From assembly GCA_031127185.1 (NCBI GenBank), contig JARIET010000003.1:1-23373 (forward strand): DNA of 23,373 bases. The letters are read 5' to 3'. The DNA comes from Gemmatimonadota bacterium (GTDB lineage Bacteria; Gemmatimonadota; Gemmatimonadetes; Gemmatimonadales; Gemmatimonadaceae). Both the position numbers and the translations under genes were made by a program. The notes under the pieces were generated by a model, which was not told the origin of the DNA, searched no databases, and saw nothing but the letters and a program-made list of their open reading frames with translations. Of the stretch, positions 3,863 to 23,373 are shown in pieces (positions within the stretch are counted from its first letter, which is position 1; every line of letters begins with the position of its first letter).

Positions 3863-4411
3863 ATGAACGATGAGATCTTTCACCTGACGCCGGTTGATGT
3901 GCGACGGTTCGAGTTCGGCACCGCGCTGCGCGGCTACGACAAGTCGCGCGTGGACCAGTTTCGCGAACAGGTCGCGGACGAACTTGAACGCCAGGCGCGC
4001 GTGAACCAGGAGCTCGAAGCCAAGGCCCGCGGATTTCACGAGCAGCTTCGGGCGTTTCGTGAGCGCGACAAGGCGCTGAACGACGCGCTCATCTCGGCGC
4101 AGCAGATGCGCCAGGACACCAAGGAGCAGGCCGATCGCGAGGCGCAGCTCATCGTTCGCGAAGCACAGGCCGACGCGGACAAGCTCGTCGCCGAAGCGCG
4201 CACGGCGTCGGACGAATTGCTGGAAGCGGCGAAAGTCGGCGTGCGAAAGCTGGAGCGGCAGGTCGACGCGCTGGAGCGGCTCCGGCGCAGCTACCTCGTG
4301 CAGATGCGGAAGATGGCCGAGCAGCAACTCGCCGAGATGCAGGCTGCCGAGCAGGCGCCGGCCCCACCGCGCCCGACGCCGGTGGATCCGGCTGAAGAGG
4401 TACAGGGCTGA
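3863..4411 (+). CDS. divIVA: DivIVA-family polar/septal coiled-coil protein
   Basis: This 182-residue protein opens with the DivIVA N-terminal signature: LTPVDVRRFEFGTALRGYDK (residues 8-27) then SRVDQF. In the family this short segment binds negatively curved membrane. A long, highly charged coiled coil (about 34-165) follows, then a proline-rich tail. DivIVA-type proteins mark poles and septa and recruit cell-division or growth factors. GGGAGGA at 3852-3858 is a good ribosome site. Placement between yggS and ileS matches the Firmicutes cluster, although SepF, YlmG and YlmH are absent here. Because the region downstream encodes an MglA/roadblock polarity system, a polar landmark role is possible, but that is inference. 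Confidence 0.88.
   Translation: MNDEIFHLTPVDVRRFEFGTALRGYDKSRVDQFREQVADELERQARVNQELEAKARGFHEQLRAFRERDKALNDALISAQQMRQDTKEQADREAQLIVREAQADADKLVAEARTASDELLEAAKVGVRKLERQVDALERLRRSYLVQMRKMAEQQLAEMQAAEQAPAPPRPTPVDPAEEVQG
4394..4410 (+). promoter_or_regulatory. Ribosome-binding site and likely CTG start of the nucleoside phosphorylase
   Basis: GAAGAGG (4394-4400) lies 7 bases before CTG at 4408. That CTG overlaps the divIVA stop as CTGA. The only standard start in the frame is GTG at 4474, which has no ribosome site at proper distance and would remove most of the first conserved helix. No ATG or TTG exists between the in-frame stop at 4393 and 4474. Confidence 0.5.
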
Positions 4412-9650: not shown

Positions 9651-10605
9651 GGATGGAGAAGCGGGAACGCGGCTCGACGTCCTCGTCGGGCAGCGCTTGT
9701 CGTTGTCGCGCACGCAAGCCGCTACGCTGATTGCCGATGGGCGAGTGCAAGTGGCCGGTCGCGCGGAACGGGCCAGCTTCAAGGCCGAGAGCGGCGTCGA
9801 GGTGACGGTGCACGTGCCGGAACCGGTCGGCCGTGAGGTGCTCGCGGAGCAGATCCCGATCAGCGTGGTCTTTGAGGACGAAGACATTCTGGTGGTGGAC
9901 AAGGCAGCCGGAATGGTTGTGCACCCGGCGCCAGGGAACTGGACCGGAACCCTCGTCAATGCCCTCAAGGGCCGTGGTCAGGCGTTGGCCAATGCAGGAA
10001 ACGAGGATCGTGCAGGGCTCGTGCATCGGCTCGACAAGGAAACGTCGGGCCTGATGATTGTGGCCAAGTCGGAACGCGCCCACCGCGTGCTCGCCAAGGC
10101 CATTTCGGAACGGCGGGTCGCGCGCCGCTACGCCGCCCTCTGCTGGGGCCACGTGAAGGGCGACGACATCACCGTCGATGCGCCCATCGCGCGCGACCCG
10201 AACGATCGCAAGCGGATGGCAATCGTGGCCGCCGGCCGGGCTGCGAAGACGGACTTCCACCGGTTGGCCCGGTTCACGAGTACCGACCTGCTGCGCGCCC
10301 ACCTGCACTCGGGGCGGACGCACCAGATTCGCGTGCATCTCGCCTCCATCGGACACCCCGTGGTGGGCGACGACACGTACGGTGGCGGAGGGGCCCGCCG
10401 GCTCGTGGCGCTGCCCCCGAAACGGCAGTTTTTACACGCCGCCTGGCTGCGGTTTCGGCACCCGGGGTCGAACGAGGAACTCGACTTCCGTGCGCCGCTG
10501 CCGCCTGAGCTTCGAACGTCGCTTGGCGCGGTGTCGGAGACCCCCGAAATAATTGCCCACCCGGATCCCTTGGAGTACCTTGGCTTCTATAGAGTCGACG
10601 ACTGA
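9547..10605 (+). CDS. rluD: RluD-type 23S rRNA pseudouridine synthase
   Basis: The enzyme isomerises uridines to pseudouridine in RNA. An N-terminal S4 RNA-binding domain (RLDVLVGQRLSLSRTQAATL) precedes the RluA-family catalytic domain. The catalytic aspartate is D163 in GLVHRLDKETSGL. HSGRTHQIRVHLA and HPVVGDDTYGG are further family blocks. Homology begins only at about 9637 (HRFAVEDGEAGTRLD), and no start codon lies between 9570 and there. The gene must therefore start at ATG 9568 or 9547, 83 to 104 bp inside lspA. I chose 9547 because GAGGA lies 11 bases upstream; 9568 is possible. The extra N-terminus is a proline run. The position after lspA matches ylyB of Bacillus. Exact target uridines cannot be told from sequence. 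Confidence 0.93.
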   Translation: MPLPAHLMSQIRRTPPPPPTPPTPLPPPTHRFAVEDGEAGTRLDVLVGQRLSLSRTQAATLIADGRVQVAGRAERASFKAESGVEVTVHVPEPVGREVLAEQIPISVVFEDEDILVVDKAAGMVVHPAPGNWTGTLVNALKGRGQALANAGNEDRAGLVHRLDKETSGLMIVAKSERAHRVLAKAISERRVARRYAALCWGHVKGDDITVDAPIARDPNDRKRMAIVAAGRAAKTDFHRLARFTSTDLLRAHLHSGRTHQIRVHLASIGHPVVGDDTYGGGGARRLVALPPKRQFLHAAWLRFRHPGSNEELDFRAPLPPELRTSLGAVSETPEIIAHPDPLEYLGFYRVDD

Positions 10606-11029
10606 TTTTCAGGGTCGCCGGCTGCTCCGATTTCGGGCCGCCGGCACGGCGTGTGCCTGCGACCTGGGCGCGGTACGGGAGATCGTGCGCGGGCGCCCGC
10701 TGGCCCGATTGCCTGGGGCGCCTGCCTGGGTGCCGGGGATCATGAACCTCCGCGGCACGCTGGTCACGGTCGTGGACCTGTCCGTACGCCTTGGCGCGGC
10801 GCCGGTCGGCCCACCGCGGGTCGTGATGGTGGTGGAGGGGGCCGGAAAGCGCTTCGGGTTGGGTGTGGAATCGGTGCAGGGTGTGGCCGATATCACAGAA
10901 GAACTGATGGAACCGCTCGATGCTCAACGCAACTCGGGCGGCGTTGTCGGGGCGCTGGCACACCTTCCCGATGGTGTAACGCAGTGGTGCGAGATCGATG
11001 TGATCGCCAGGGAGAGTCTGGCGGGGTGA
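10580..11029 (+). CDS. cheW: CheW-like chemotaxis coupling protein
   Basis: This protein of about 149 residues is a single CheW domain, an SH3-like adaptor that links CheA to receptors. Signatures are LLRFRAAGTACACDLGAVRE, RLPGAPAWVPGIMNLRGT and LVTVVDLSVRLG. Its start is TTG 10580 with GGAG at 10572-10575. An earlier TTG at 10553 lacks a ribosome site. It begins 26 bp inside rluD, so the chemosensory genes are joined without a gap to the housekeeping genes. The C-terminal part is less conserved but ends with the CheW-type segment GVTQWCEIDVIARE. Confidence 0.92.
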   Translation: MASIESTTDFQGRRLLRFRAAGTACACDLGAVREIVRGRPLARLPGAPAWVPGIMNLRGTLVTVVDLSVRLGAAPVGPPRVVMVVEGAGKRFGLGVESVQGVADITEELMEPLDAQRNSGGVVGALAHLPDGVTQWCEIDVIARESLAG

Positions 11030-11065
11030 GGGCGAGGGCGAACGACACCTACCGACGAGGATGAT

Positions 11066-11428
11066 GTGGCGCACACAGTCTTGATCTGCGATGACGCGAT
11101 CTTCATGCGAACGATGGTCGGCGACATCCTTCAACAGGCCGGGTTCGATGTGGTGGGCGAGGCAGAGACCGGCCGGGACGCCGTTGAGAAATACAAACAG
11201 TTGCGCCCGGACCTCGTCACGATGGACATCGTGATGCCGGACATGGGCGGTATCGATGCCGTTCGGGAGATCACCTCGTTCGATCCGGGCGCCAAGGTGC
11301 TGATGTGCAGCGCGATGGGGCAGCAGGCGCTCGTGGTGGAGGCGATCCAGGCCGGGGCCAAGGACTTCGTTGTGAAGCCGTTCCAACCGAGCCGCGTGCT
11401 GGAGGCGGTGCAGCGCGTCCTGGGGTAG
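11066..11428 (+). CDS. cheY: CheY-type single-domain response regulator
   Basis: This 120-residue receiver domain has no output domain. The acidic pair is D9-D10 (LICDDAIFMR), the phospho-acceptor is D54 (VTMDIVMPDM), the switch Ser is S82 (MCSAMGQQ), and the lysine is K104 (FVVKPF). All residues needed for phosphorylation are present. Its start is GTG 11066 with GAGG at 11057-11060. It lies directly before cheA, its probable kinase, and a CheC phosphatase gene follows. Its partner may be a motor or one of the TPR, PATAN or roadblock proteins downstream; the sequence does not decide this. Confidence 0.96.
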   Translation: MAHTVLICDDAIFMRTMVGDILQQAGFDVVGEAETGRDAVEKYKQLRPDLVTMDIVMPDMGGIDAVREITSFDPGAKVLMCSAMGQQALVVEAIQAGAKDFVVKPFQPSRVLEAVQRVLG

Positions 11429-11438
11429 TCCGCTCTCC

Positions 11439-13466
11439 ATGGCGCTCGACGCATCCCGCTACGCTGAACTCTTCCGGAGCGAAAGTCAGGACCAGCTCCA
11501 GACGATAAACCGTGCGCTGCTGACCATCGAGTCGGCGCGTGGCGACGCCTCATCGGCCGCCACGGCCGCCGCCGTGGCGGAAGTCTTCCGCGCTGTGCAC
11601 ACGGTCAAGGGCATGAGCGCGACAATGGGATACCAGGCCGTGGCAGAGTATGCCCACGAGCTGGAGTCGCTGCTCGACCGCATGCGCGGCGAGGGTGCGG
11701 CGGTCACAATGCCGGTGATGGATGCGCTCTTCGCGGCTGCTGATGCGCTCGAGCATGGGATTGGCGAGGCGTCCGAGGCCGCGCCGCGCACGGAAGCGAT
11801 GACCAACGCGTTGCACCGGTTGTCCGGCGCATTTCGCGCCGCTGGGGGCGAGAACGCGGTGAGCGATGCGGCGCGAACCGGCGTAACGCCCGGCGCCGCC
11901 CATCGCGCATCGGGAGCGCTGCACCGAGTGTCCGGCGCCGTGGCCGCCGAGCCCCTCGTGGAAGCGGACTCGGGCCCCACTGTTGTCGATCCCTTTGATG
12001 GGCCGGGCGTGATCATTCGCATCCGGCAGTCGGCGACGACGACCCTTCCCGGCGTCCGGGCATTCATCGTCACGCAGAAGCTGGCGGCGATTGGCGAGGT
12101 CGCCGCCGTCAGTCCCCCGCTTGAGCAGCTGCAGGCCGCTGAGGCGCCCCAGGGATTTGCCGTGCGCCTGGTGACTGGGGCCGACGCCGCGGCCATCGAA
12201 GCCGCCGTTCGCAGCGCTGGCGACGTCGACACGGTGCATGTGGACATGCTTGGCCGCGCCCGGAAACGTGCTGCCGGACCAGCCGATGAGCCGATCGCCG
12301 AGACGACATCGGCCCGGGTGCGGCAGGTGAAGATCGACCTTTCGCGGCTCGACACGATGATGAACCTCGTTGGCGAACTCGTCATCGCGCGCGGCCGGTT
12401 GGTCCAACTCACGGCAGGTAGCCCGGACCCTGCGCTCGACGAATCCGTGACCCAGATGGCGCACCTCGTTGGCGAGTTGCAACGCGAGATCACCGCCAGT
12501 CGCATGGTGCCGGTTGGTCAGGTGTTCGATCGCTTTCCGCGCATGGTGCGCGACGCCGCGCGCGGGCTCGGCAAGGACGTGCGCTTCGAAGTGGAGGGTC
12601 GCGACATTGAGCTGGATCGGTCGCTGCTCGACGAAATGGCTGAGCCGCTCGTGCACTTGCTGCGCAACGCGATCGACCACGGGCTCGAGGGACCAGCGGA
12701 GCGGACGGCAGAGGGCAAACCTGCGGCCGGAACACTCTTCCTGTCGGCCACCCGCGAGCGCTCGGCCGTGGTGATTCGCGTGCAGGATGATGGCCGGGGT
12801 ATCAATCGGGCTCGCGTGCTCGAGCGGGCGCGCGTCAGCGGGCTGGTGGACGCGGGGGTACGCGATCTCGACGACGCGGACCTGTTGCGCTGCCTCGCCC
12901 ACCCCGGTTTCTCCACGAAAGACTCGGTCACAGGACTGTCTGGCCGTGGCGTGGGCGTCGACGCCGTCGTGAACAAAGTCCGCAGCCTTGGCGGCTCCGT
13001 GGAACTCCACACCGCGCTGGGAGCAGGGTCGAGTTTCACGCTTCGGCTGCCGCTCACCGTTGCGATCGTGCGTGCGCTCCTCGCCCGCGCAGGCGGGGAA
13101 CACTACGCACTTCCGCTGACGCACGTGCGCGAGACCCTGGAATGGGGCCCGGACAGTGTGCGCCAGGTGAACGGCACGGATGTGCTGGTACTCCGCGACG
13201 AGGTGCTGCCGCTCGTCGACCTGCGCGATGTCGTGCAGCTCCGGGGTGTGCGGGCCGCAAACGCCACGCGGGAGATCGTCGTGGTTGAGCGCGGCGAGCG
13301 GCGGACCGGGCTGGTGGTGGACGAGTTGCTCGGGCAGGACGAAATCGTGGTGAAGCAGTTCGACGCGGCGCGTGGTGAAGCCACCGCTGCGGGGCTGTTC
13401 ACCGGCGCGACGATCCTCGCGGATGGCGCTCCGGCATTGATCATGGACCTCGCAAGCCTCCTCTAG
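11439..13466 (+). CDS. cheA: Chemotaxis histidine kinase CheA
   Basis: This 675-residue kinase has the full CheA order. The N-terminal HPt domain carries phospho-acceptor H54 in FRAVHTVKGMSA. A response-regulator-binding P2-like domain lies at about 190-272, followed by the dimerisation helices (about 290-355, LSRLDTMMNLVGELVIARGRL). The kinase domain has N410 and H414 (LRNAIDHGLEG), DDGRGIN (450-456) and GRGVG (502-506). A C-terminal CheW-like domain starts at about 540. An Ala/Gly-rich linker (about 115-185) separates HPt from P2. All catalytic residues are present, so it should be active. It starts 10 bp after cheY. No receptor gene is in the window. Confidence 0.97.
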   Translation: MALDASRYAELFRSESQDQLQTINRALLTIESARGDASSAATAAAVAEVFRAVHTVKGMSATMGYQAVAEYAHELESLLDRMRGEGAAVTMPVMDALFAAADALEHGIGEASEAAPRTEAMTNALHRLSGAFRAAGGENAVSDAARTGVTPGAAHRASGALHRVSGAVAAEPLVEADSGPTVVDPFDGPGVIIRIRQSATTTLPGVRAFIVTQKLAAIGEVAAVSPPLEQLQAAEAPQGFAVRLVTGADAAAIEAAVRSAGDVDTVHVDMLGRARKRAAGPADEPIAETTSARVRQVKIDLSRLDTMMNLVGELVIARGRLVQLTAGSPDPALDESVTQMAHLVGELQREITASRMVPVGQVFDRFPRMVRDAARGLGKDVRFEVEGRDIELDRSLLDEMAEPLVHLLRNAIDHGLEGPAERTAEGKPAAGTLFLSATRERSAVVIRVQDDGRGINRARVLERARVSGLVDAGVRDLDDADLLRCLAHPGFSTKDSVTGLSGRGVGVDAVVNKVRSLGGSVELHTALGAGSSFTLRLPLTVAIVRALLARAGGEHYALPLTHVRETLEWGPDSVRQVNGTDVLVLRDEVLPLVDLRDVVQLRGVRAANATREIVVVERGERRTGLVVDELLGQDEIVVKQFDAARGEATAAGLFTGATILADGAPALIMDLASLL

Positions 13467-13486
13467 CCGCACGCGCGCGGACCCCG

Positions 13487-14095
13487 ATGAACGATCTCAA
13501 GAACCTCTCTCCCGGCCAGCTTGACGCGCTTCGCGAAGTCGCGAACATCGGCGCGGGCCACGCGGCCACGGCGCTTTCGCAGATGACGGGCCAGCGCATC
13601 ATGATCAGTGTGCCCACGGTCAACGTGGCGCCGCTCGAGGATGTGCCAAACCAGATCAGCGACGGTGAGGAGCCGGTGGCGGCCGTGTTGATGCGGATGA
13701 TGGGTGACCTCACGGGCATGACGCTGCTCGTTTTCCCGAAAGCGACGGCGCTGGAGGTGGCCGGGCTGATGATGCGCCGGCCCGCCGTGGAATTCGGGAT
13801 GATAGAGCAATCGGCCATCAAGGAGGCCGGGAATATCCTCAGTTCGGCGTACATGAACGCGCTTTCGGAGTTCATGGGGATGATCCTCATGCCGTCGCCG
13901 CCGTCCCTGGCGGTGGATCACTCGCAGGCGGTGCTCAGCTCCACCTATGTCGAAGTGTCGCCGACGGCCGGGGTCGTCCTGTGCGTGGAGAGCGAGTTCA
14001 TCCTCACCGACGCCAAGACCCGTGTGCGCGGCCTGTTTCTCCTGCTCCCGGATCCGCCGAGTCTCGCGGCCATCCTGAGGTCGCTCCGGGTCTGA
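13487..14095 (+). CDS. cheC: CheC-type CheY-phosphate phosphatase
   Basis: This 202-residue protein carries the two E-x2-N phosphatase motifs of the CheC/CheX/FliY family: E17/N20 in LREVANIGAGHAATAL and E113/N116 in AIKEAGNILSSAY. In this family these residues hydrolyse the phosphoryl group of CheY. Both sites are intact. It follows cheA by 20 bp and overlaps the next start as TGATG. In many bacteria CheC works with the deamidase CheD, which is absent from the window. It most likely resets the CheY encoded upstream. Confidence 0.93.
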   Translation: MNDLKNLSPGQLDALREVANIGAGHAATALSQMTGQRIMISVPTVNVAPLEDVPNQISDGEEPVAAVLMRMMGDLTGMTLLVFPKATALEVAGLMMRRPAVEFGMIEQSAIKEAGNILSSAYMNALSEFMGMILMPSPPSLAVDHSQAVLSSTYVEVSPTAGVVLCVESEFILTDAKTRVRGLFLLLPDPPSLAAILRSLRV

Positions 14096-16932
14096 TGTCC
14101 GCAGCGATGGGCTCGGACCGCGACCGCGAAGCGCTGCGGTCGTTCGCCAGGCGGATCGATCCGTCGGACGCAGGTGCGCACAACAACCTGGGTGTGCTCT
14201 ACTACAACAAGGGGCTGTTCGAGGAAGCCGCGGCGGCATTCACCAAGGCGCTCGAACTCGATCCGCGGATGCAGGTCGCGCAACGCAATCTTGAAGTCGC
14301 CTACCTCAACACGGGCTACTACGAAAAGCGCGTGGCGCAGCTCCGCGACCGGCTGCGCCTGCGGGTGGACGATCGCGACGCGCGCTGGGAGCTGGGCCGT
14401 GCCTATGCGCTGCTCGGGCAGCACGAGGAGGCGGTCGCGGAATTCTCGGCACTCCTGCGCCATCACCCAGGCGACCTTGGCGCGCTGACGCAACTGGGCC
14501 TTGCCGAGAAGGCGCGCGGCAACCTGGTCGAGGCGCAGCAGTGGTTTGAGGAGTCGCTTACCCTCGACCCGGGCAGTTCAGTCACCTACTTCAACCTCGG
14601 CGAGATCCTGTACAATCAGGGCCGGCACGAGGAGTCGCTGACGGCGCTCCAACGGGCCATTGCGCTCAACCCCGATAACCCCGACGCGCATTTCCTCCTT
14701 GGCTTCGTGTACGGCGACATGGGGCGGCACGATGAGGCGCGCGCATCGAGCAAGCGCGCGATTCAGCTCAACCCCGCGCTTTCGCGAGCGCAGACGAATC
14801 TCTCGATCGACCAGTACAACGCCCAGAAGTACGAGCAGCTGGTGAGTGAGCGGGCGGACTCCGTCACGCCGCGACGCTCAGTTCGCCAGTTGCAGGTCAC
14901 CGAGAGCGGGCAACTTGCCCACTACAACCTCGGTGTGGCCTTTCGCCAGAAGGGCTACTTCGCCGAGGCGCTCCGGGAATACGGCTTGGCACTGGAACGG
15001 GGAGAGGATGCCTTCATCGCCCGCCAGGCGATGGCGGAGGTGCACCTCCTCAAAAAGGAGCCTGCCGCCGCGTTGGCGCTCTACGATCGGCTGGTCCTCG
15101 AACAACCCGCGAGTCCGAAACTGTGGAACGAGCGCGGCCTGGCCCTGCAGCAGGAGAGCCGACAGGGCGATGCGGCGGAGAGTTATCGCAAGGCGATTGC
15201 CGCCGACCCCGCCTACGCCATCGCCCACAACAACCTCGGTGTGGCCCTGTATCACGTCGGCCAGCGCGACGAAGCCATCGACGCGTTTCGGCAGGCGCTG
15301 GAAGTCAACGGGGCGTTTGTGAAGGCGCGGCTCAACCTGGCGTTACTGCTCACGAAGAGTCGCCGGTACCAGCTTGCGCTCGAGGCGTACCGCAAGGTGC
15401 TGGTGGCCGAGGGCGAGAATCCGGTGGCGTGGAACGGCATTGGCCTCGTGCTGGGCGAGTTGCGCAAGTTCGAGGACGCCCGCAACGCGTATGCGCGCGC
15501 GATCCAGGCGCGTCCGAACTACGCCGAGGCGCATTACAACTTGAGCTTTACGCTCTCCAACCTTGGTGATTTCGAGGGGGCGCTGCGCGAGACGAAGCGC
15601 GCGCTGGAACTCGATCCCTACTATGTGCCGCAGAAGTTCGAGCTCGCGATCGACCTGGAATTTGAAGATCCCGATTTCAGCGTACAGCCGGAGTTGGGCT
15701 CCGAGAAGCGTGTGTCCAGCGAGGTCGAATCATTTTCGTTCGACCCCAAGCTGCTTGACACGCTGTTCACGGAATTGGCGCCCACACCGCAGGCCACGCC
15801 CGTTGTGGAGCCGGCGCACGAGTCCAATCCGTACGCAATGGCGGCCGACTACCTCACCAAGGGGCTGCTCGACCGCGCGACGGCCGAGACGAGCCGGGCG
15901 CTGAACCGCGGAGCGGATTCCGCCGAAGGCCACGCGCTGCTGGGTGACATTCTCTGCCGGCAGGGCGCGTACGGCGACGCACTGGAGAAGTACCGCATCG
16001 CCGCGGAGGTGAACCCGCTGCACCTCCGCGCCCGGCGCGGTCAGGCGCAAACGCTGGTCATGCTTGGCCGCGGTGCCGAGGCTCGCGATGTCGCGGAGCA
16101 GTTGCTCGTCGGCGCCGAGCGCGATGCCGATGCACTGATGCTGGTGGCGAGTTGCCGTTTCGAAGCGGGAGACCCTGCGGCCGCACTCGAGGCGCTCGAC
16201 GCCGCCCGCACTGCGGCGCCGGCACGTGCCGATGTGCTCCGCTGGATTGGCAATATCACGCGATCGCTGGGAGACACCGAAGGTGCGATCGCCGCGTATC
16301 GGCACGCCCTGGCCCTCGACGCGGATTTCGCCGTGGTGCGGTTCGATCTCGCGCGCCTGTTGACGCAGCGCGAGGCCTGGGCCGAGGCAGAGAAGGAGTT
16401 GCTCGCCGCGTTGGATGCGGTGCCGACGTACACCGAGGCCACGCTTGAGCTGTCGCGGGTGCGACGCCTTACGGGCAGGCACGGCGATGCCATACGCACA
16501 TTGGCCGAGCTGCTCCAACGTGATTCGTACAACTTCGAGGCATTGATCGCCTTGGGCGAGACGTTGATCGAGGTGGGGCGCCGGACCGACGCCGGGATGG
16601 CGTTCAAGCGGGTCCTGGCGTTCGACCCGGACAACGTCGGCGCGATGTTCTACGAAGGCGAGCTTCTCGCCGAACAGAAGCGTTTCGAAGAAGCGATTGC
16701 GCGCTGGGACCGCGTTGTAGACCTGGAACCAGCCGGGGAGTTCGCCCGCCGTGCGCGTCGCGAAGCCCGGAGCGCGGCCGACCTGCTGAAGGTGTTCGGC
16801 CAGCGGTCGCAACCGGTCGAGGTGGTGACCGACCCCACAGCGGCGGCGCTCGCCGCCGCGCGCGCCGCACGGAAGCCGGCCGGCGCCCTCACTCCGGTCG
16901 GCGCGGCCGGTGTGACCAGCGGGGAGGGCTGA
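14095..16932 (+). CDS. Giant TPR-repeat scaffold protein
   Basis: This 945-residue protein is almost entirely tetratricopeptide repeats. I count about 23 units in two blocks. Residues about 20-515 hold units such as AHNNLGVLYYNKGLFEEAAA and AHYNLSFTLSNLGDFEGALR. A non-repeat acidic linker follows at about 516-580 (FEDPDFSVQPELGSEKRVSS). The second block ends near residue 890, with an Ala-rich tail. No signal peptide, enzyme motif or membrane segment is seen, so it should act in the cytoplasm as a protein-binding scaffold. Start ATG 14095 overlaps the cheC stop (TGATG); ATG 14107 is an alternative. Its position between the Che and PATAN/MglA genes suggests that it connects them. That is inference. 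Confidence 0.9.
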   Translation: MSAAMGSDRDREALRSFARRIDPSDAGAHNNLGVLYYNKGLFEEAAAAFTKALELDPRMQVAQRNLEVAYLNTGYYEKRVAQLRDRLRLRVDDRDARWELGRAYALLGQHEEAVAEFSALLRHHPGDLGALTQLGLAEKARGNLVEAQQWFEESLTLDPGSSVTYFNLGEILYNQGRHEESLTALQRAIALNPDNPDAHFLLGFVYGDMGRHDEARASSKRAIQLNPALSRAQTNLSIDQYNAQKYEQLVSERADSVTPRRSVRQLQVTESGQLAHYNLGVAFRQKGYFAEALREYGLALERGEDAFIARQAMAEVHLLKKEPAAALALYDRLVLEQPASPKLWNERGLALQQESRQGDAAESYRKAIAADPAYAIAHNNLGVALYHVGQRDEAIDAFRQALEVNGAFVKARLNLALLLTKSRRYQLALEAYRKVLVAEGENPVAWNGIGLVLGELRKFEDARNAYARAIQARPNYAEAHYNLSFTLSNLGDFEGALRETKRALELDPYYVPQKFELAIDLEFEDPDFSVQPELGSEKRVSSEVESFSFDPKLLDTLFTELAPTPQATPVVEPAHESNPYAMAADYLTKGLLDRATAETSRALNRGADSAEGHALLGDILCRQGAYGDALEKYRIAAEVNPLHLRARRGQAQTLVMLGRGAEARDVAEQLLVGAERDADALMLVASCRFEAGDPAAALEALDAARTAAPARADVLRWIGNITRSLGDTEGAIAAYRHALALDADFAVVRFDLARLLTQREAWAEAEKELLAALDAVPTYTEATLELSRVRRLTGRHGDAIRTLAELLQRDSYNFEALIALGETLIEVGRRTDAGMAFKRVLAFDPDNVGAMFYEGELLAEQKRFEEAIARWDRVVDLEPAGEFARRARREARSAADLLKVFGQRSQPVEVVTDPTAAALAAARAARKPAGALTPVGAAGVTSGEG

Positions 16933-16933
16933 G

Positions 16934-17932
16934 ATGGCGATCGAAGGCCCGCTTCGGGAACTCGGCATTCACGACGTCTTCCAGATCCTCGACCTGAGTC
17001 GGAAGACGGGAACGTTGCACGTCACTTCTGAGTTGCGCGACAACTCCGGCCGCGTCCTCTTCCGGCAGGGCCGGGTGGTGGGCGCCAACATCAAGAGCCA
17101 CCCGCTGCGCATCGGCGACCTCCTGCTCAAGAAGGGGCGCGCGACCGAGGCCGACATCACGCGTGCACTGGCAGCGCAGCGTGAGGGCGGCGGGCAGAAA
17201 CGGCTTGGCGACTTCCTCATCGACTTCGGCGTGATCAGCGCCAAGGAGCTCGAGCGCGAGGTGCGCTCGCAGATCGAGAATGTGATCTTCGACCTGCTCT
17301 CATGGAGCGAGGGCTTCTTTCGCTTCGAGGATGGCGGCACGCCAGAGCACGAGGGGAGCATCGTCAACATTTCCACGGAATCGCTGCTGATGGAGGGCGC
17401 GCGACGGATTGACGAGTGGTCGCGCATCGCCGATCGCGTGCCCAGCCTGGCCTGCGTACCGTCAATCGCCGACGTCGACGAAGGTGAGGCACCGCGCATG
17501 GACCTGCTCCCGAACGAATGGGAAGTGCTGACCATGATTGACGGGGCGCGGGACCTCCGGCAAATCTCGGATGCGCTCGTGCGATCGGACTTCGATGTTG
17601 CACGCATCGTCTATGGGCTGGTGAGCACGGGGGTGGTCAGCCTGAAGGTTCCGGGAGGGCGGGGTTCGCGCCGCAGCACGGCGCGCGTGCTGACCCCTGG
17701 CACGCAGCAGGCTGTGTCGGCCACCCCCGATCCGACGCCGGCCGACGGCGTACCGGTGGACGACCTTGCCCGGGGATTTGCCGCGCTGCGCGTGGCCGAT
17801 TTTGACACCGTCGTGAAGGCGTGGGCGCAGTTTCTGCAGACCCATCCCTACGACGACCGGTCGCCGCAGGTGCGTCAGGGACTCGACGCCGCGCTGAAGT
17901 TGCGCGCCATGCTTGAGGCGCCCCAGTCGTGA
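16934..17932 (+). CDS. PATAN (DUF4388) domain protein with MshEN-like insertion
   Basis: This protein of 332 residues begins with a PATAN/DUF4388 domain: a short N-terminal part (EGPLRELGIHDVFQILDLSR), a helical insertion, and the segment ESLLMEGARRIDEWSRI at about 150-165. The insertion carries two 24-residue repeats, R59-Q82 and R90-Q113, of the form RLGxxLxxxGxIxxxxLxxxLxxQ, separated by 7 residues. A winged-helix-like part with a short loop lies at about 190-240. The rest is a small helical region (AWAQFLQTHPYDDRSPQVRQG) resembling one TPR-like helix pair. GGGGAGGG at 16921-16928 is a very strong ribosome site. It is a paralogue of the gene at 22148. PATAN domains occur in cyanobacterial PatA and in social-motility regulators; the molecular role of this one is unknown. 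Confidence 0.9.
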   Translation: MAIEGPLRELGIHDVFQILDLSRKTGTLHVTSELRDNSGRVLFRQGRVVGANIKSHPLRIGDLLLKKGRATEADITRALAAQREGGGQKRLGDFLIDFGVISAKELEREVRSQIENVIFDLLSWSEGFFRFEDGGTPEHEGSIVNISTESLLMEGARRIDEWSRIADRVPSLACVPSIADVDEGEAPRMDLLPNEWEVLTMIDGARDLRQISDALVRSDFDVARIVYGLVSTGVVSLKVPGGRGSRRSTARVLTPGTQQAVSATPDPTPADGVPVDDLARGFAALRVADFDTVVKAWAQFLQTHPYDDRSPQVRQGLDAALKLRAMLEAPQS

Positions 17933-18825
17933 TGGAAGCCGACGACATTCGCCTGATGAGCGAGATGCTCGCCGCAGATCCGACGAGCCTCGTGTTTCTG
18001 CAACTCGGCGAGGCGCTGCGCCGCAAGGCGCAGCTCGACCTCGCGTGGCGGGTGGCCACGCGGGGTGTGGAGCGTCATCCGGGGCGTGCCGATGCGCGTG
18101 ATCTTCTGGCGCGCATCGCCGCGGATCGGTCCGACTTTTTGCGCGCCCGCGCGGAATGGGAGCAGGCGCTCGCACTCTCCCCCGGGCACCCGGCTGCACA
18201 GAAGGGACTCGGGTTCCTGCTGTTTGCCCAGGGGGAGACGGGCGAGGCAGAGCGGTTCCTCGCTGCCGCGGCAGCCACGGACCCGTCCGATGCGTCGATC
18301 ACTGCCGCGCTCGAGAAGATTCGGGCGGCGCGTGCGTCCGCCGAGGCAAGCGTGCAGGATCGGCCGACGCTCGCGATGCACGCCCGCAACTCGGGTGGAG
18401 GTCGCGTCCCCCGCACCACGCAGGCGCTGGGCATGCCGGTGCCGTTTGCGCCGCTTGCGGTGGATCCACGCGACCTCTTCGTGGAGGTGCTGCCAGACAG
18501 GTCGCACGCCGCCTTGCTGCTCGACTCGGACGGCCTGGTGGTCGCCGGGCGCTACCTCGGCGACGACGGCCTCGACCTCGGCGAGGCGGTGGGCGCACAG
18601 CTCTCAGGCGTCAGCGACGAAGCCGCGCGCGCCATGCGGCATTTGGGGCTGGGTGCCTGGCGCCAGATTTCATTTGAGGCGCAGGCCGCGAGCGTTGCGA
18701 TGGCGCCACACGCGAATGGCCTACTGCTGGTGGCGGCGCCGCGTTCCGTGCCACTCGGTTTCCTGCGACGAATCCTGGATCGCGCTCGTGAGCGCGCGCG
18801 CAAGTGGATGGAGAGCGGAACGTGA
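17932..18825 (+). CDS. TPR protein with C-terminal roadblock/LC7-like domain
   Basis: Of 297 residues, the N-terminal half (about 1-130) has three to four TPR units (SLVFLQLGEALRRKAQLDLA, ARAEWEQALALSPGHPAAQK). After a linker, the C-terminal part (about 180-297) resembles a roadblock/LC7 fold: HAALLLDSDGLVVAG, a helix, then NGLLLVAAPRSVPLGFLRR. Roadblock domains bind and regulate small GTPases, so a link to MglA encoded 1.7 kb downstream is likely. The start overlaps the previous stop; GTG 17929 and ATG 17932 are both in frame and I use ATG. Roadblock assignment is by pattern only and has moderate certainty. Confidence 0.8.
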   Translation: MEADDIRLMSEMLAADPTSLVFLQLGEALRRKAQLDLAWRVATRGVERHPGRADARDLLARIAADRSDFLRARAEWEQALALSPGHPAAQKGLGFLLFAQGETGEAERFLAAAAATDPSDASITAALEKIRAARASAEASVQDRPTLAMHARNSGGGRVPRTTQALGMPVPFAPLAVDPRDLFVEVLPDRSHAALLLDSDGLVVAGRYLGDDGLDLGEAVGAQLSGVSDEAARAMRHLGLGAWRQISFEAQAASVAMAPHANGLLLVAAPRSVPLGFLRRILDRARERARKWMESGT

Positions 18826-19172
18826 CCGCGTCGCCATTCTCCGCCATGCTCAGCGCCCTCATTCGCCATCGCGGCGTGAAGGGATGCCTTGTGGTGGGCG
18901 AGGGTGACGGGCTCATCGTCGACTCGAACCTGCAGATCGGGGTCAACGGCGCGACCTTTGCCGCGTTGACGGCGTCGCTCTATCGCAAGGCGCGGCGCGC
19001 GGCCCAGGCTGCCGGATTTGGTGACGCTACGTTTCTGGAACTCGATGCCGAGGGCGGCCGCGTCTGCGCCGTGGGCCGCAATGACCTCGTGCTCGTGGTC
19101 GTCGCCGAGCCGCGACTCAACGTTGGACTCGTGCGCGTCGAGATGCTGAAGGCCGCGGAGTCGCTCGGATGA
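18822..19172 (+). CDS. Stand-alone roadblock/LC7 domain protein
   Basis: This 116-residue single-domain protein shows the roadblock pattern: an N-terminal helix (SAMLSALIRHRGVKGCLVVG), a strand-rich core with DGLIVDSNLQ, a long alpha-2 helix (FAALTASLYRKARRAAQAAG), and strands ending in DLVLVVVAEPRLNVGLVRVE. The start is GTG 18822, overlapping the previous stop by GTGA. It lies beside a second, MglB-like roadblock gene. In Myxococcus a separate roadblock protein, MglC, works with MglB; a similar role is possible here but not shown by sequence alone. Confidence 0.85.
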   Translation: MTASPFSAMLSALIRHRGVKGCLVVGEGDGLIVDSNLQIGVNGATFAALTASLYRKARRAAQAAGFGDATFLELDAEGGRVCAVGRNDLVLVVVAEPRLNVGLVRVEMLKAAESLG

Positions 19173-19639
19173 AGCTCCAGGTCGCTGCCGACTGGGTTGA
19201 GGCGCCCCTCAAGGCGTTCGTGGGCGAGGCTCGTGCCGAAATCGCCGTGCTGCTGCACCCCACTGGCCAGGTGCTGGGCCAGTTCGGGTTCGCGCGGTCG
19301 GTGGACGTCGTCACCGCCTGCGCACTGGGCGCGGCCATTCACGCGTCGTCCGGCGAACTGGGCAAGCAACTCGACGGCAAGCCGTTCACGGTGATGCACT
19401 ATGCCGGCCCGCACAAGCAGATGTTTCTTGCTCCCGTACCGATTGACGGTGGGACGTTGCTGCTGCTCACCGTGTTCGATGATGAGAGTTCGCTTGGGCT
19501 CGTGCAGATCTTCTTCAAGGAGTTCTGCGCCGCACTGGCAAAGGTTGCGCCGCAATGGAAGGGGGCCGAAGCTGCGCTGGCGACCGATTTCGAGAACGAA
19601 CTCAACAAGAACCTGGCCGTGATGTTCGGCCGGGGCTGA
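19169..19639 (+). CDS. MglB-like roadblock protein, probable MglA GTPase-activating partner
   Basis: This 156-residue protein carries one roadblock/LC7 domain. EIAVLLHPTGQVLGQFGFAR, AALGAAIHASSGELGK-like helix residues and LLLLTVFDDESSLGLVQIFF match the MglB pattern. MglB dimers activate GTP hydrolysis by MglA. The gene overlaps the previous one by ATGA and ends 11 bp before mglA, the same gene order as mglB-mglA in Myxococcus and Thermus. I judge this the likely MglB of the three roadblock proteins in the cluster because of its closer sequence pattern and its position. Confidence 0.85.
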   Translation: MKLQVAADWVEAPLKAFVGEARAEIAVLLHPTGQVLGQFGFARSVDVVTACALGAAIHASSGELGKQLDGKPFTVMHYAGPHKQMFLAPVPIDGGTLLLLTVFDDESSLGLVQIFFKEFCAALAKVAPQWKGAEAALATDFENELNKNLAVMFGRG

Positions 19640-19650
19640 CCAGAACCATC

Positions 19651-20247
19651 ATGTCACTCGTCAACTACGCCACGCGCGAGATCACGTGCAAGATCGTCTA
19701 CTACGGGCCGGGACGGTCGGGCAAGACGACAAACCTGCACTACATCTACGGGCAGGTACCGGGTGACCGCAAAGGCCAGATGGTCTCGCTGGCGACGCAG
19801 ACCGATCGGACGCTCTTCTTTGATTTCCTGCCGATTGATCTCGGCTCCATCTCCGGCTTCTCCACGAAGTTCCAGCTCTACACGGTGCCCGGCCAGGTGT
19901 ACTATGCCACGACGCGAAAACTGGTGTTGCAGGGCGCAGACGGCGTGGTGTTCGTGGCCGACAGTCAGGCGCGGCAACTGGCCGAGAACATCGAGAGTTT
20001 TCAGGACCTGCATGCGAATCTGGCGGAGAACGAGGTCGATGTGCGGCAGGTGCCGTTGGTGATTCAATACAACAAACAGGACTTACCGCGTGACATGGTG
20101 ATGAGCGTCGACGAGCTCGACGACCAGTTGAACTTCCGCGGCGTGCCAAGTTTCGCGGCGGACGCCCTACACGGTCCTGGCGTATTTGAGACGCTGCGCG
20201 CGATCTCCGAGCAAGTGCTGCGCCGCCTTTCGGCGGGGGGGCGTTAG
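19651..20247 (+). CDS. mglA: MglA-type small Ras-like GTPase
   Basis: This 198-residue GTPase is the prokaryotic Ras-like switch that sets front-rear polarity in gliding and twitching bacteria. The P-loop is GPGRSGKTT (19-27). The intrinsic arginine finger R53 (TDRTLFFDFLP) and Q82 (TVPGQVYY) fall at the same residue numbers as in characterised MglA proteins. The usual Ras DxxGQ is TVPGQ, the MglA signature. NKQD is at 141-144 for guanine recognition. The C-terminus is short with no lipidation site. The ATG follows the MglB-like gene by 11 bp. A longer frame upstream is shadow sequence. Its presence argues for a surface-motility or polarity role of the cluster. Confidence 0.97.
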   Translation: MSLVNYATREITCKIVYYGPGRSGKTTNLHYIYGQVPGDRKGQMVSLATQTDRTLFFDFLPIDLGSISGFSTKFQLYTVPGQVYYATTRKLVLQGADGVVFVADSQARQLAENIESFQDLHANLAENEVDVRQVPLVIQYNKQDLPRDMVMSVDELDDQLNFRGVPSFAADALHGPGVFETLRAISEQVLRRLSAGGR

Positions 20248-20248
20248 G

Positions 20249-22147
20249 ATGCGCCTCGACGCACGCTTCAGCTTCGACAGCCTGGTCGTCGGCGGCGGGA
20301 ACCGGCTCGCCGTGGCCGCGGCGCGCGCGGTCGCCGAGTCGCCCGGTTCCGTCTACAATCCGCTGTTCATCTATGGCACGACGGGACTGGGCAAGACGCA
20401 CCTCATGGGGGCCATCGCGACGCTGGCCAGGGCGCTGCAGCCCGAGATTGAAGTCGAGTATCTCTCGCTCGACGAGTTCATGGAGCAGATGCACGCGGCC
20501 ATTGCCGCCGGCCAGCTCGATGCATTCGCGCGCAAGTACGAGCGGATTGGGTTGCTCCTGATCGACGACGTGCAGTTCCTCGCAGGTCGCCGCGAGACTC
20601 AGGGCGAACTGCTCCGCCTGTTTGAGCGGATGCAGACCCAGGGGCGGCAGATCGTGCTCACCAGCGACCGCCCGCCGGCCGAGATACAGGACATTGACGA
20701 CCGCCTGGTCAGCCGGCTCTCGGGCGGGCTGATCGTGGATGTGACTGCTCCCGACTTTGAGACCCGCGTCGCGATCCTGCGTACCATCTGCCAGGCCCGA
20801 AAGATTCAGTTCAAGGACGGGATGCTTGAGGAACTGGCACGGTTCGAATTCTCGAATGTCCGCGAGCTGCAAGGCGCGCTCAATCGCCTGGTGGCGCACC
20901 AGTCGATCGGCCCGGACGCGGCGCCGGCTCCGCGCACCAGCGCGGCCGTGGAGCGTAGCGTGAACGAGTTTGACTCGTTCCTCACCGACGTGGCCAGCGC
21001 GGTGCAACAGCACGTGGAGTCGTGGCAGAACCGCGTACGGGAGCGGGTGGCCTTTTGGCAGGGCGAGGGATATCGCACAGGCGTCCTCTCGCGCGCGCTC
21101 GACCTGCCGAAGGAGCCGGATGTGGAGGGCCTCCTCGCGACCTTCACGGCAGCGGTGGAGCACCTCAAGCGCCTCGAGAAGGCGGCAAGCACCGCCGACG
21201 AGCGTCTTGGGGCTGATCCGGTGTTTCGCGACCCGGAGCGGCTCGCCGAGGCCGAGGACCTCGTGGAAAAGGCGCTCGCGGGGCGCACCCCGCCGCCGGC
21301 ACCGGCGCTCAATTTTCAACGTGACGCCTTCGATGTGGGGCAGTCGAACCAGCTCGCAGCCCACGCCGCCGACGAGATCGTGGCGAACCCCGGCGGGAAA
21401 TACAATCCGCTGCTCGTTCATGGGCCATCGGGAGTGGGAAAGACGCACCTCCTCAATGCCATCGGAAACGCAATTGCCGACCTGCCGATGCCCGACGGCC
21501 GTACCCGCATCGTGGGCTGCGTCCACGCGCAGAAGTTCATCGATGAACTCATCGCGGCCATCCAGAACGCGACGGTGGAGCGCTGGCGCACGCGGTATGC
21601 CCATGTCGACGCATTGCTGATCGATGACGTGCAGTTCGTCGCCGGCAAGGAGCGCACGCAGGAGGAGTTCTTCGTGCTCTTCAACACGCTCGTAGCCGAA
21701 GGAAAACAGATCGTGCTCACCAGCGACCGCACACCGGCCGAGATTCCTGACCTCGAGGCGCGCCTGCGTTCGCGGTTTGAGGGTGGACTGGTTGTCGCCA
21801 TTCAGCCGCCCGACCGGCCGCTCCGGGAGCGGCTGTTTGCCCGCTATCTCGAACACGCGGGCCGCGCAGCTCCGCCTGACCTGCTCCAGACCCTCGCCGA
21901 GCCCGTGGTGCAGAGTGTCCGGGAAATCATCGGCGTCGTGAACCGGCTGGGCGCCGTCGCCGACGCGGGCGGTGTCGCCATTACGTCGCAGATGGTGCGC
22001 GGCGAGCTCGGGATGCCCACACCGCTCTCCGGTGTGCCGGCCGTGCAACGCTCACGCGGCACCCGCGATGCGTCATTCCTCGACGCCGAGAAGATCGTCT
22101 GGGAATGGCCCGACGTCACCGCGCGCATCATCGAGGAGTTCCGCTAA
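20249..22147 (+). CDS. Tandem DnaA-type AAA+ ATPase without DNA-binding domain IV
   Basis: This 632-residue protein has two complete DnaA-class AAA+ domains. Domain 1 has Walker A GTTGLGKTH (43-51), Walker B LLLIDDVQF (around D106-D107), sensor I LTSDR (137-141), box VII arginines R152/R156, and sensor II R205 (NVRELQGALNR). A charged helical linker runs at about 225-360. Domain 2 has GPSGVGKTH (392-400), LLIDDVQF (456-463), LTSDR (490-494), R505/R509 and R558 (VREIIGVVNR). There is no DnaA N-terminal domain and no C-terminal helix-turn-helix. Start ATG 20249 lies one base after the mglA stop; GGGGGG is upstream. The family relation is to DnaA/Hda, but the role here is unknown. The setting suggests a part of the signalling or polarity system rather than replication initiation. 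Confidence 0.92.
   Translation: MRLDARFSFDSLVVGGGNRLAVAAARAVAESPGSVYNPLFIYGTTGLGKTHLMGAIATLARALQPEIEVEYLSLDEFMEQMHAAIAAGQLDAFARKYERIGLLLIDDVQFLAGRRETQGELLRLFERMQTQGRQIVLTSDRPPAEIQDIDDRLVSRLSGGLIVDVTAPDFETRVAILRTICQARKIQFKDGMLEELARFEFSNVRELQGALNRLVAHQSIGPDAAPAPRTSAAVERSVNEFDSFLTDVASAVQQHVESWQNRVRERVAFWQGEGYRTGVLSRALDLPKEPDVEGLLATFTAAVEHLKRLEKAASTADERLGADPVFRDPERLAEAEDLVEKALAGRTPPPAPALNFQRDAFDVGQSNQLAAHAADEIVANPGGKYNPLLVHGPSGVGKTHLLNAIGNAIADLPMPDGRTRIVGCVHAQKFIDELIAAIQNATVERWRTRYAHVDALLIDDVQFVAGKERTQEEFFVLFNTLVAEGKQIVLTSDRTPAEIPDLEARLRSRFEGGLVVAIQPPDRPLRERLFARYLEHAGRAAPPDLLQTLAEPVVQSVREIIGVVNRLGAVADAGGVAITSQMVRGELGMPTPLSGVPAVQRSRGTRDASFLDAEKIVWEWPDVTARIIEEFR
20648..20671 (+). repeat. 24-bp direct repeat, copy 1 (sensor I, first AAA+ domain)
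   Basis: The 24 bases encoding QIVLTSDR are identical to 21707-21730 in the second AAA+ domain. Identity also at synonymous positions points to internal gene duplication or conversion, since neighbouring codons differ. Confidence 0.75.
21707..21730 (+). repeat. 24-bp direct repeat, copy 2 (sensor I, second AAA+ domain)
   Basis: Identical to 20648-20671, encoding QIVLTSDR in the second DnaA-type domain. Sequence after it (PPAEI versus TPAEI) remains similar but no longer identical. Confidence 0.75.
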
Positions 22148-23373
22148 ATGGCGATCAAGGGCTCACTCGCCGAAGCGTCGCTCCCGGACGTCCTGCAGCT
22201 GCTGTCCATGGGCAAGAAGACGGGATGTCTCTCCGTCACGCATCGCAACAACTTCGGATCGATCTTCTTTGACAAGGGGAAGATTTCCTACGCTGCCATC
22301 GTCAACCGGCGCGACCGACTGGGCGACATCCTCGTCAAGTCGGGAACGATTTCTGGGGCGCAGCTCGACCAGGCCATTGCCGCGCAGGGAAAGAACCGCG
22401 ACAAGCGGCTCGGCGAGATCCTGGTGGACCTTGGCATCATCACGAAGGAGCAGCTCAACGCGCAGATCCGCATCCAGATCGAGGAGGCGGTGTACTTCCT
22501 CTTCACCTGGGCCGAAGGGAGCTTCAACTTCGAAGCCGACATCCTGCCGGAACAGCAGGACCTGCTGGTGTCGATCAATCCCGAATCGCTGCTGCTCGAA
22601 GGTGCGCGACGGGTCGACGAGTGGAGCCAGATCGAAAAGAAGATCCCGAGCTTTGATATCGTCTTCGAGGCGGACCGACGGCACATCGAGGCAAGCGGCG
22701 CCAAGTTGAGCCATGAGCAGACCGTGATCCTTCCCCTCGTCGACGGCTCACGCGACGTCACCCGCATCATCGAAGATTCGGGCCTCGTGGAGTTCGAAGT
22801 GGGGAAGGCCCTCTACGCCCTCGCTACGGCCGGCTTCCTCCATCGGGTGGGGCGTTCCAAGACGCCCGATACGACGATGGCCACGGACGCGCGGGTTGAA
22901 GAGCACCGGAACCTCGGCATCGCGTTCTACAAGACGGGAATGCTCGACGAGGCCTCGCGCGAGTTCAAGCGGGTGACCGAGCTGCGGCCGTCGGATCTCA
23001 AGGCGCGTTTCATGCTGGGACTCTCGCATCTGCGCATGGGCAGGTACGACGCGGCAGTCGCCGACTTCGAGCAGGCGTCGCACGCTCGGTCCGCCACGGC
23101 GCCGGTGTTCCACAATCTCGCCTTCTCGCTGGAAAAAATGGGGGAGACGGCCAAGGCCCGCGAAGCACTGGCCGAGGCGCTGCGCCGCGGTGGGGAACGC
23201 GACGCGCGGGTGCATACGTCCATGGGTGTCCTCGCGCTGCGCGATGGCGCGCTGAGCGCGGCAGAGGCGGCGTTTGCCACGGCGCGCTCGCTGACCGGGA
23301 ACCAGCCGCCGGCTGCGGCCTGGTTCCATTTTGCCGCACTCACATCGGCGCTGGGCGGCGGTCTCGATCGCGC
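22148..23373 (+). CDS. PATAN (DUF4388) plus TPR protein, 3' end outside window
   Basis: At least 408 residues are visible and no stop occurs before the right edge. An N-terminal PATAN domain (SLPDVLQLLSMGKKTGCLSV, then ESLLLEGARRVDEWSQIEKK at about 147-166) contains two 24-residue MshEN-like motifs, R57-Q80 and R87-Q110, with a 6-residue spacer. A winged-helix-like section (about 185-240) follows, then TPRs (EHRNLGIAFYKTGMLDEASR, ARFMLGLSHLRMGRYDAAVA). It is a paralogue of the protein at 16934, sharing the MAI-x-G start and the EGARR-x-DEWS block. The ATG is directly after the stop of the tandem AAA+ gene. Function is unknown; a signal-reading scaffold is plausible. Confidence 0.9.
   Translation, partial: MAIKGSLAEASLPDVLQLLSMGKKTGCLSVTHRNNFGSIFFDKGKISYAAIVNRRDRLGDILVKSGTISGAQLDQAIAAQGKNRDKRLGEILVDLGIITKEQLNAQIRIQIEEAVYFLFTWAEGSFNFEADILPEQQDLLVSINPESLLLEGARRVDEWSQIEKKIPSFDIVFEADRRHIEASGAKLSHEQTVILPLVDGSRDVTRIIEDSGLVEFEVGKALYALATAGFLHRVGRSKTPDTTMATDARVEEHRNLGIAFYKTGMLDEASREFKRVTELRPSDLKARFMLGLSHLRMGRYDAAVADFEQASHARSATAPVFHNLAFSLEKMGETAKAREALAEALRRGGERDARVHTSMGVLALRDGALSAAEAAFATARSLTGNQPPAAAWFHFAALTSALGGGLDR

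Follow-up and report, generated by a model that had tools for sequence, protein, structure and literature searches.

A tandem DnaA-type AAA+ protein in an MglA-chemosensory locus of Gemmatimonadota and its constant neighbour, a PATAN/TPR gene

Introduction

What is a protein built from two DnaA-type domains doing in a chemosensory locus? AAA+ ATPases of the DnaA type are known as proteins that initiate replication or control its initiation. In the stretch of DNA analysed here (the window: 23,373 nucleotides of contig JARIET010000003.1, from a partial Gemmatimonadota metagenome-assembled genome that is 61% complete), an open reading frame (ORF) at 20249..22147 encodes a protein of 632 amino acids (aa) and starts one base 3' of a gene for an MglA-type GTPase. 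An earlier note, made from the letters of the window, had proposed that this tandem protein is a DnaA-derived switch or oligomer recruited into a signalling or polarity system, its gene lying in an MglA/chemosensory block. Here, we ask whether the protein belongs to replication, which neighbour it keeps across genomes and what its parts may do.

Results

Two DnaA-type AAA+ modules without a DNA-binding domain

The ORF, a Pfam scan and a predicted model define two modules of the DnaA domain III type with a complete catalytic motif set; motif alignment and model thus bear out the two full domains and helical linker that the earlier note described. AAA1 (residues 1-220; 20249..20908, forward strand like all features below) carries P-loop K49, Walker B D106-D107, sensor I D140, box VII R152, arginine finger R156 and sensor II R205, and the corresponding residues of AAA2 (residues 353-592; 21305..22024) are K398, D459-D460, D493, R505, R509 and R558. 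Between them lies a helical linker domain (residues 236-350; 20954..21298) for which we found neither a Pfam family (single weak match, E 0.079) nor a match among PDB sequences (best E 0.29). The protein ends in a conserved tail (residues 607-632, DASFLDAEKIVWEWPDVTARIIEEFR; 22067..22144) that is mostly of low confidence in the predicted model, with a short helix at 623-631. A domain IV helix-turn-helix was looked for in the 632-aa protein and found neither by Pfam scan nor in the model, which has no fold after AAA2; here too the earlier note was right, as it was about the position of the gene start.

By sequence, the tandem protein is closer to DnaA (E 9.7e-57) than to Hda (E 1.6e-7), and the Hda fold is among the structural matches of its AAA+ domains. 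Kinship with double-AAA proteins of the p97/Rix7 type was considered and rejected, the Foldseek matches aligning at a root-mean-square deviation above 14 Å over two domains.

The tandem protein is distinct from the replication initiator

The source genome holds a separate dnaA-type gene (G000:C145), and AAA1, AAA2 and DnaA fall into three separate clades, both with 17 DnaA proteins of the phylum and with a set that includes seven from Planctomycetota and that of E. coli. The tandem protein is not an orthologue of its genome's dnaA and is distinct from the replication initiator. AAA1 and AAA2 were recovered as sisters with support of 95/74, the alternative grouping of AAA2 with DnaA received an approximately unbiased test p of 0.0485, and the single-AAA forms placed in the tree group with the AAA1 clade. 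The sequence trees are suggestive of one duplication as the source of both domains.

A search of 395 genomes of the phylum returned, among the matches listed, many homologues spanning both AAA domains; single DnaA-type matches near E 1e-55 were taken as ordinary dnaA, and some genomes of the source genus had, among the matches listed, a dnaA match only. The gene is spread widely over the phylum, and the cultured species Pseudogemmatithrix spongiicola has a homologue of 59% identity (P0094). All named homologues are from Gemmatimonadota, save one contig in a Planctomycetota bin. This 3.2-kb contig (L006, JADLHO010000107.1) gives at least one tandem among 149 Planctomycetota genomes (G395). It nests inside family f1 of our tree (families are numbered f1, f2 and so on) and is taken as a likely binning contaminant. 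When the linker and tail of a family f9 protein served as query, 105 homologues were found and Gemmatimonadota was the only lineage named; two rows of this search are P0321, labelled PF00365, and P0257, which lacks a Pfam label.

A modular protein, of which the tandem is one form

Downstream of the tandem gene lies PATANb, encoding a PATAN (DUF4388) domain and TPRs (22148..23371, cut by the window end). We read loci of up to 22 kb, searching neighbours mostly with the window's own genes, and compared forms of the protein in 98 loci, one per genome, chosen for having PATANb. Two AAA domains are present in 66 of these loci and one in 18, while nine hold AAA-less forms that keep linker and/or tail. 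In three further loci no form is recognisable as an ORF of its own next to PATANb, and the remaining two are truncated or ambiguous. The tail (about 25 residues) and the first linker helix are mostly retained where the AAA domains are lost. Indeed, in seven genomes of three genera (G010, G016, G021, G023, G047, G095 and G113) only a mini-ORF stands directly 5' of PATANb; read from its first plausible start, it comprises 60-86 aa and contains the tail and the first linker helix (about residues 241-262 of the window protein). One of the three loci without a separate ORF, that of G217, is a natural fusion, in which a single 1051-aa ORF runs without stop through AAA1, linker, AAA2, tail, PATAN (with the MshEN-type insert described below) and TPRs. 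A second candidate fusion, in G134 (L101), has a shifted frame and was discarded. The protein is modular, with two, one or no AAA domains, and the tandem architecture of the window protein is one of its forms.

PATANb, not MglA, is the constant neighbour

As the 98 loci were chosen for PATANb, only the set of 71 other locus reads that hold the AAA gene bears on whether PATANb or MglA is the constant neighbour. A PATANb match is present in 71 of 71, a count that leaves out the dnaA control L100, in which L101 is weak (66 bits, broken frame) and a few genomes appear twice. The two genes commonly overlap by TGATG or TAATG stop-start sequences or abut directly, which fits coupled translation. mglA lies directly upstream of the AAA gene in 73/98 loci, by a distance rule that misses at least one locus (L084), a few loci stopping at contig ends. 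Replication genes were not seen among the identified neighbours, which were searched for mostly with the window's own genes and are che, mgl and PATAN genes or ileS, lspA and rluD; the pattern that the earlier note had named as refuting its idea, a gene usually away from mglA and beside replication genes, did not occur.

MglA as an obligate partner was not supported, since all 13 loci of family f5 lack a local mglA and PATANb is constant, and even fused in G217. The f5 order is ileS-(lspA)-rluD-[AAA gene]-PATANb, without che or mgl genes in the locus, and each of the five f5 genomes checked has one lone mglA elsewhere, with no other gene of the block recognised within about 8 kb. mglA is likewise absent from the f1 loci L099, L107-L109 and L114, which hold the gene or a remnant of it. 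The constant neighbour is PATANb, not MglA, and the neighbour tabulation that the note had called for finds mglA common.

Among 80 hand-chosen genomes, 55 have PATANb, and 53 of these carry the AAA gene, complete or reduced. Each of the 25 PATANb-negative genomes had, among the matches listed, one DnaA-type match, taken as dnaA; AAA-less forms were not sought there. In raw genome counts, uncorrected for phylogeny, mglA occurs anywhere in the genome in 55/55 with PATANb versus 12/25 without, and GGDEF proteins in 55/55 and 19/25, respectively.

Two loci from relatives of the source genome deserve mention. In L099 (G057, a genus-mate), AAA1 plus tail (a 283-aa frame) and PATANb follow rluD, and the che/mgl block is absent from that spot. 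In L116 of G295, a source-genus genome that is 99% complete, cheA (about residue 601) is joined to PATANb (from residue 106), by deletion or misassembly, and the intervening block is missing from this spot.

PATANb carries a probable c-di-GMP-binding insert

The insert of PATANb occupies residues 55-109 (22310..22474), and residues 54-109 match the structure of MshE bound to cyclic di-GMP (c-di-GMP; 5HTL) with E 1.6e-8. MshEN c-di-GMP receptors carry two 24-residue motifs, according to available sections of PMC5013675. The window insert, with its two RLGxxLVxxG-type motifs, shows the MshEN pattern RLGxx(L/V/I)2xxG..LxxxLxxQ twice, with single-position departures when judged by eye. An insert of 56-57 residues is present in 89 of the 96 loci where the N-terminus of PATANb can be read, both motif starts being intact in 85 of the 89, and the seven mini-ORF loci have three residues in its place. 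From these sequence features, the insert probably reads c-di-GMP.

Given that PATANb is found in every locus examined, that a natural fusion exists and that the first linker helix and tail persist in the mini-ORFs, we infer that the tandem protein docks on PATANb; this is the best supported of the functional proposals made here, c-di-GMP input and pilus output being weaker. In a MAFFT alignment with short tail rows, which was misaligned and not used for folding, the tail was placed on the last part of the PATAN domain (LLLEGARRVDEWSQI, about residues 150-165 of the window PATANb), with a common V-x-E-W pattern, a likeness that could be mimicry or chance.

AAA1 and AAA2 may divide the labour

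In family f5, the P-loop lysine of AAA2 is gone (0/12) and the Walker B aspartates nearly so (1/12 each), but the equivalents of R281 and R285 are present in 12/12, both among the 32 invariant columns out of 147. AAA1 of the same family keeps the P-loop lysine, both aspartates and the R285 equivalent (12/12 each). In f2 and f3, a domain's own arginine finger is present in 6/10 AAA1 and 10/12 AAA2; sensor II of AAA2 in f4 and f5 falls in an alignment gap. The DnaA arginine finger contacts the ATP of the neighbouring protomer (PMC8287927, in part). The loss of ATP-site residues from f5 AAA2 with retention of its arginines favours AAA2 as the finger donor for AAA1, which would be the ATPase of the pair. 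In the f6 loci L079-L085, the single AAA1 has decayed at sensor I (Asp in 2/7), box VII (Arg in 0/7) and sensor II (Arg in 0/7), with an intact P-loop lysine (7/7); it is possibly an ATP-binding-only form, and hydrolysis may be dispensable in f6.

Organisation of the window locus and its relatives

Upstream of the tandem gene, the window locus brings together che, PATAN, roadblock and mglA genes. It comprises cheW, a cheY-like gene, cheA and cheC (10553..14095), identified by Pfam scan except for the CheY-like ORF (11066-11428), which was named from its sequence alone; a large TPR protein of uncertain start (14095..16932); and, by Pfam scan, a second DUF4388 protein, PATANa (16934..17932), a TPR and roadblock protein (17929..18825) and an MglB-like roadblock/LC7 protein (18804..19172). 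A third roadblock-type protein (19169..19639) has no Pfam match here, and its orthologue in L057 matches Robl_LC7. The last gene before the tandem (19651..20247) encodes a Ras-like GTPase of 198 aa with Pfam Arf/Ras-type matches, which we take to be MglA from the type of locus and from likeness to MglA proteins. PATANa holds, by eye, an MshEN-like pair of RLG..G..L..Q motifs, and the operon may thus contain two MshEN-type PATAN proteins. Further upstream, before ileS, a DivIVA-like gene (3863-4411) was named from its sequence and place; homologues occupy the same position in several f5 loci.

The usual order in f1-f4, f6 and f9 is cheW-cheY-cheA-cheC-TPR-PATANa-TPR/robl-robl-robl-mglA-[AAA gene]-PATANb. 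L062, L071, L085 and L089 extend as far as rluD without a cheA match, and L050, L053, L074, L095 and L096 have mglA without a roadblock match. Downstream genes were scanned in two loci of the che/mgl type, L039 and L057; both continue with cheR, cheB, cheW, a TPR gene and a peptidase-MA-like gene (under the curated cut-off for the peptidase in L039), with cheD in addition in L057. In the f5 locus L068, the genes after PATANb encode a peptidase-MA protein and a sigma-54 regulator.

Discussion

In Synechocystis, the pilus motor ATPase PilB1 is a binding partner of PATAN proteins (PMC7690835 and PMC9090330, in part), and in Myxococcus MglA and the TPR protein SgmX drive pilus formation (PMC11580455, in part). 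On this ground, we read the locus as an MglA-chemosensory PATAN/TPR system for motility or polarity. We see an evenly balanced case for the proposal that the tandem protein is a Gemmatimonadota-specific ATP switch or adaptor that descends from DnaA domain III, has ceased to serve replication and docks on the PATAN/TPR scaffold of an MglA-chemosensory operon of the type-IV-pilus kind. Its anchors on the PATAN-TPR protein, made from the next gene, presumably by coupled translation, would be the tail and the first linker helix. AAA1 would bind and hydrolyse ATP, and AAA2 would close on it and provide the arginine finger, giving a built-in pair like that of a DnaA filament; longer filaments are conceivable. 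The nucleotide state would then alter how the scaffold engages its client, with c-di-GMP probably sensed by the PATANb insert, chemosensory input from CheA/CheY and polarity input from MglA and the roadblock proteins. By analogy with PATAN-PilB and MglA-SgmX, the output would probably be the type IV pilus motor or the polarity of surface motility. A fuller version, a non-replication DnaA switch throughout the lineage, is tentative and rather less likely: that DnaA domain III was captured and duplicated into an ATP-gated pseudo-dimer which, with a c-di-GMP-reading PATAN/TPR scaffold, sets the pilus or polarity state, and was whittled down in side branches to one AAA domain, to none, or to docking helix and tail. 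The switch in signalling or polarity that the earlier note had proposed thus stands as far as the distinctness from dnaA and the che/roadblock/mglA block of f1-f4, f6 and f9 go, without MglA as an obligate partner.

Several observations count against the proposed switch. The DnaA arginine finger also steadies the AAA+ fold in cis (PMC8287927, same sections), so its retention is no proof of action in trans. The start of an MshEN motif is broken in 4/89 inserts (L050, L053, L059 and L114), and those of L050 and L053 adjoin two-AAA forms with intact P-loops. In a 76-row tree, the seven loci lacking the insert group together as a single clade (support 100/100); the joint loss of the AAA domains, most of the linker and the insert is hence a single event, suggestive and unreplicated. 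G159 and G245 retain linker and insert with the AAA domains absent, and G057 retains AAA, tail and insert with the linker absent, so that the insert does not go with the AAA domains alone. G133 and G295 have PATANb, its N-terminus absent from the locus, with no tail protein found, and matches to a hidden Markov model of the tail are weak or absent in f5. An AlphaFold2 model of tail and PATAN domain as one chain was poor (mean predicted local distance difference test score 52.5, and 25-32 for the first 40 residues) and gives no support for docking. As for the surroundings, mglA is found in 0/13 f5 loci, where the AAA gene adjoins the PATAN/TPR gene all 13 times, the association with mglA comes from uncorrected counts, and PilT-family genes occur in 78/80 genomes, so that presence or absence cannot test the pilus link. 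Finally, AAA2 of f1 keeps the DnaA K243/R245 region, with which single-stranded DNA (ssDNA) binding would be compatible.

The last point belongs to a quite different explanation, in which the protein is a DnaA paralogue linked to ssDNA or replication, as an Hda-like regulator of DnaA or a coupler of replication or the cell cycle to polarity. The retained segment of AAA2, GKERTQ, corresponds to the K243/R245 region; in f1 AAA1 the pair is not retained (mostly R/E). With families in which every AAA2 is inactive or missing (f5, f6 and f9), the helix-turn-helix absent by Pfam scan and model and no replication gene among the identified neighbours, we regard a nucleic-acid role as improbable. An effector or regulator of MglA, acting like a guanine nucleotide exchange factor or GTPase-activating protein or as a polar oligomer recruited by MglA, with PATANb a mere bystander in the operon, has better standing and is still unlikely. 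It would account for mglA directly upstream in most loci (73/98, the missed L084 apart), for some mglA in every PATANb genome of the 80 and for the tail retained beside mglA in 4/7 mini-ORF loci, but the 13 f5 loci and L099, L107-L109 and L114 keep the gene or a remnant without local mglA, whereas PATANb is never missing from a locus examined. The least probable explanation is a general AAA+ chaperone or remodeller of a chemosensory or pilus complex, after the p97-type rings of two AAA domains. The tandem architecture and the p97/Rix7-type chains among the Foldseek matches would suit it, but these chains superpose poorly over two domains, the number of AAA domains ranges from zero to two with AAA-less forms persisting, and motifs of the DnaA clade favour open filaments (PMC8287927, same sections).

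We return to the switch or adaptor on PATANb and compare it with known systems. With DnaA it has in common the domain III AAA+ module with intact motifs, and it differs in its two copies, Pfam-less linker, own clades and missing domain IV. Hda is a single DnaA-type AAA+ protein without domain IV that bears a clamp-binding N-terminal motif. The absence of domain IV is thus shared, whereas two AAA+ domains, a long tail, a che/mgl operon and a large sequence distance set the tandem protein apart. The Myxococcus MglA-SgmX-FrzS-SopA system resembles the locus in its MglA, TPR and chemosensory parts, and PATAN proteins are named there as candidates; a DnaA-type AAA+ protein is not mentioned in the sections of PMC11580455 available, and the present locus centres on the PATAN/TPR gene. 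Cyanobacterial PATAN-REC proteins likewise place a PATAN domain in chemotaxis-like pilus control (PMC7690835 and PMC9090330, in part), whereas the protein here is PATAN-MshEN-TPR without a receiver-domain match and has an AAA+ partner. With MshEN receptors PATANb shares the two 24-residue motifs (PMC5013675, in part) and the match to 5HTL, although its insert lies inside a PATAN domain and is not fused to a T2SSE-type ATPase.

A 2014 survey of prokaryotic Ras GTPases noted PATAN genes near some MglA groups, and 'DnaA' is absent from its main text (PMC4316618). Among the open-licence PMC papers listed by our searches, none appears to describe a tandem DnaA-AAA protein in an MglA/chemosensory locus and none pairs DUF4388 with MglA or MshEN; where PATAN and MshEN occur together, MshEN is only said of PilB or stands in reference lists. 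The locus appears to combine known kinds, DnaA-clade AAA+ proteins and MglA/PATAN chemosensory loci, in an undescribed variant. Its PATAN domains with MshEN inserts are candidate c-di-GMP receptors, and the reduction series, from two AAA domains through one and none to a docking mini-protein, together with one fusion, makes the roles of the parts directly testable. If the proposal is true, the DnaA switch would be reusable for cell signalling, without its DNA-binding domain, inside an MglA-chemosensory operon.
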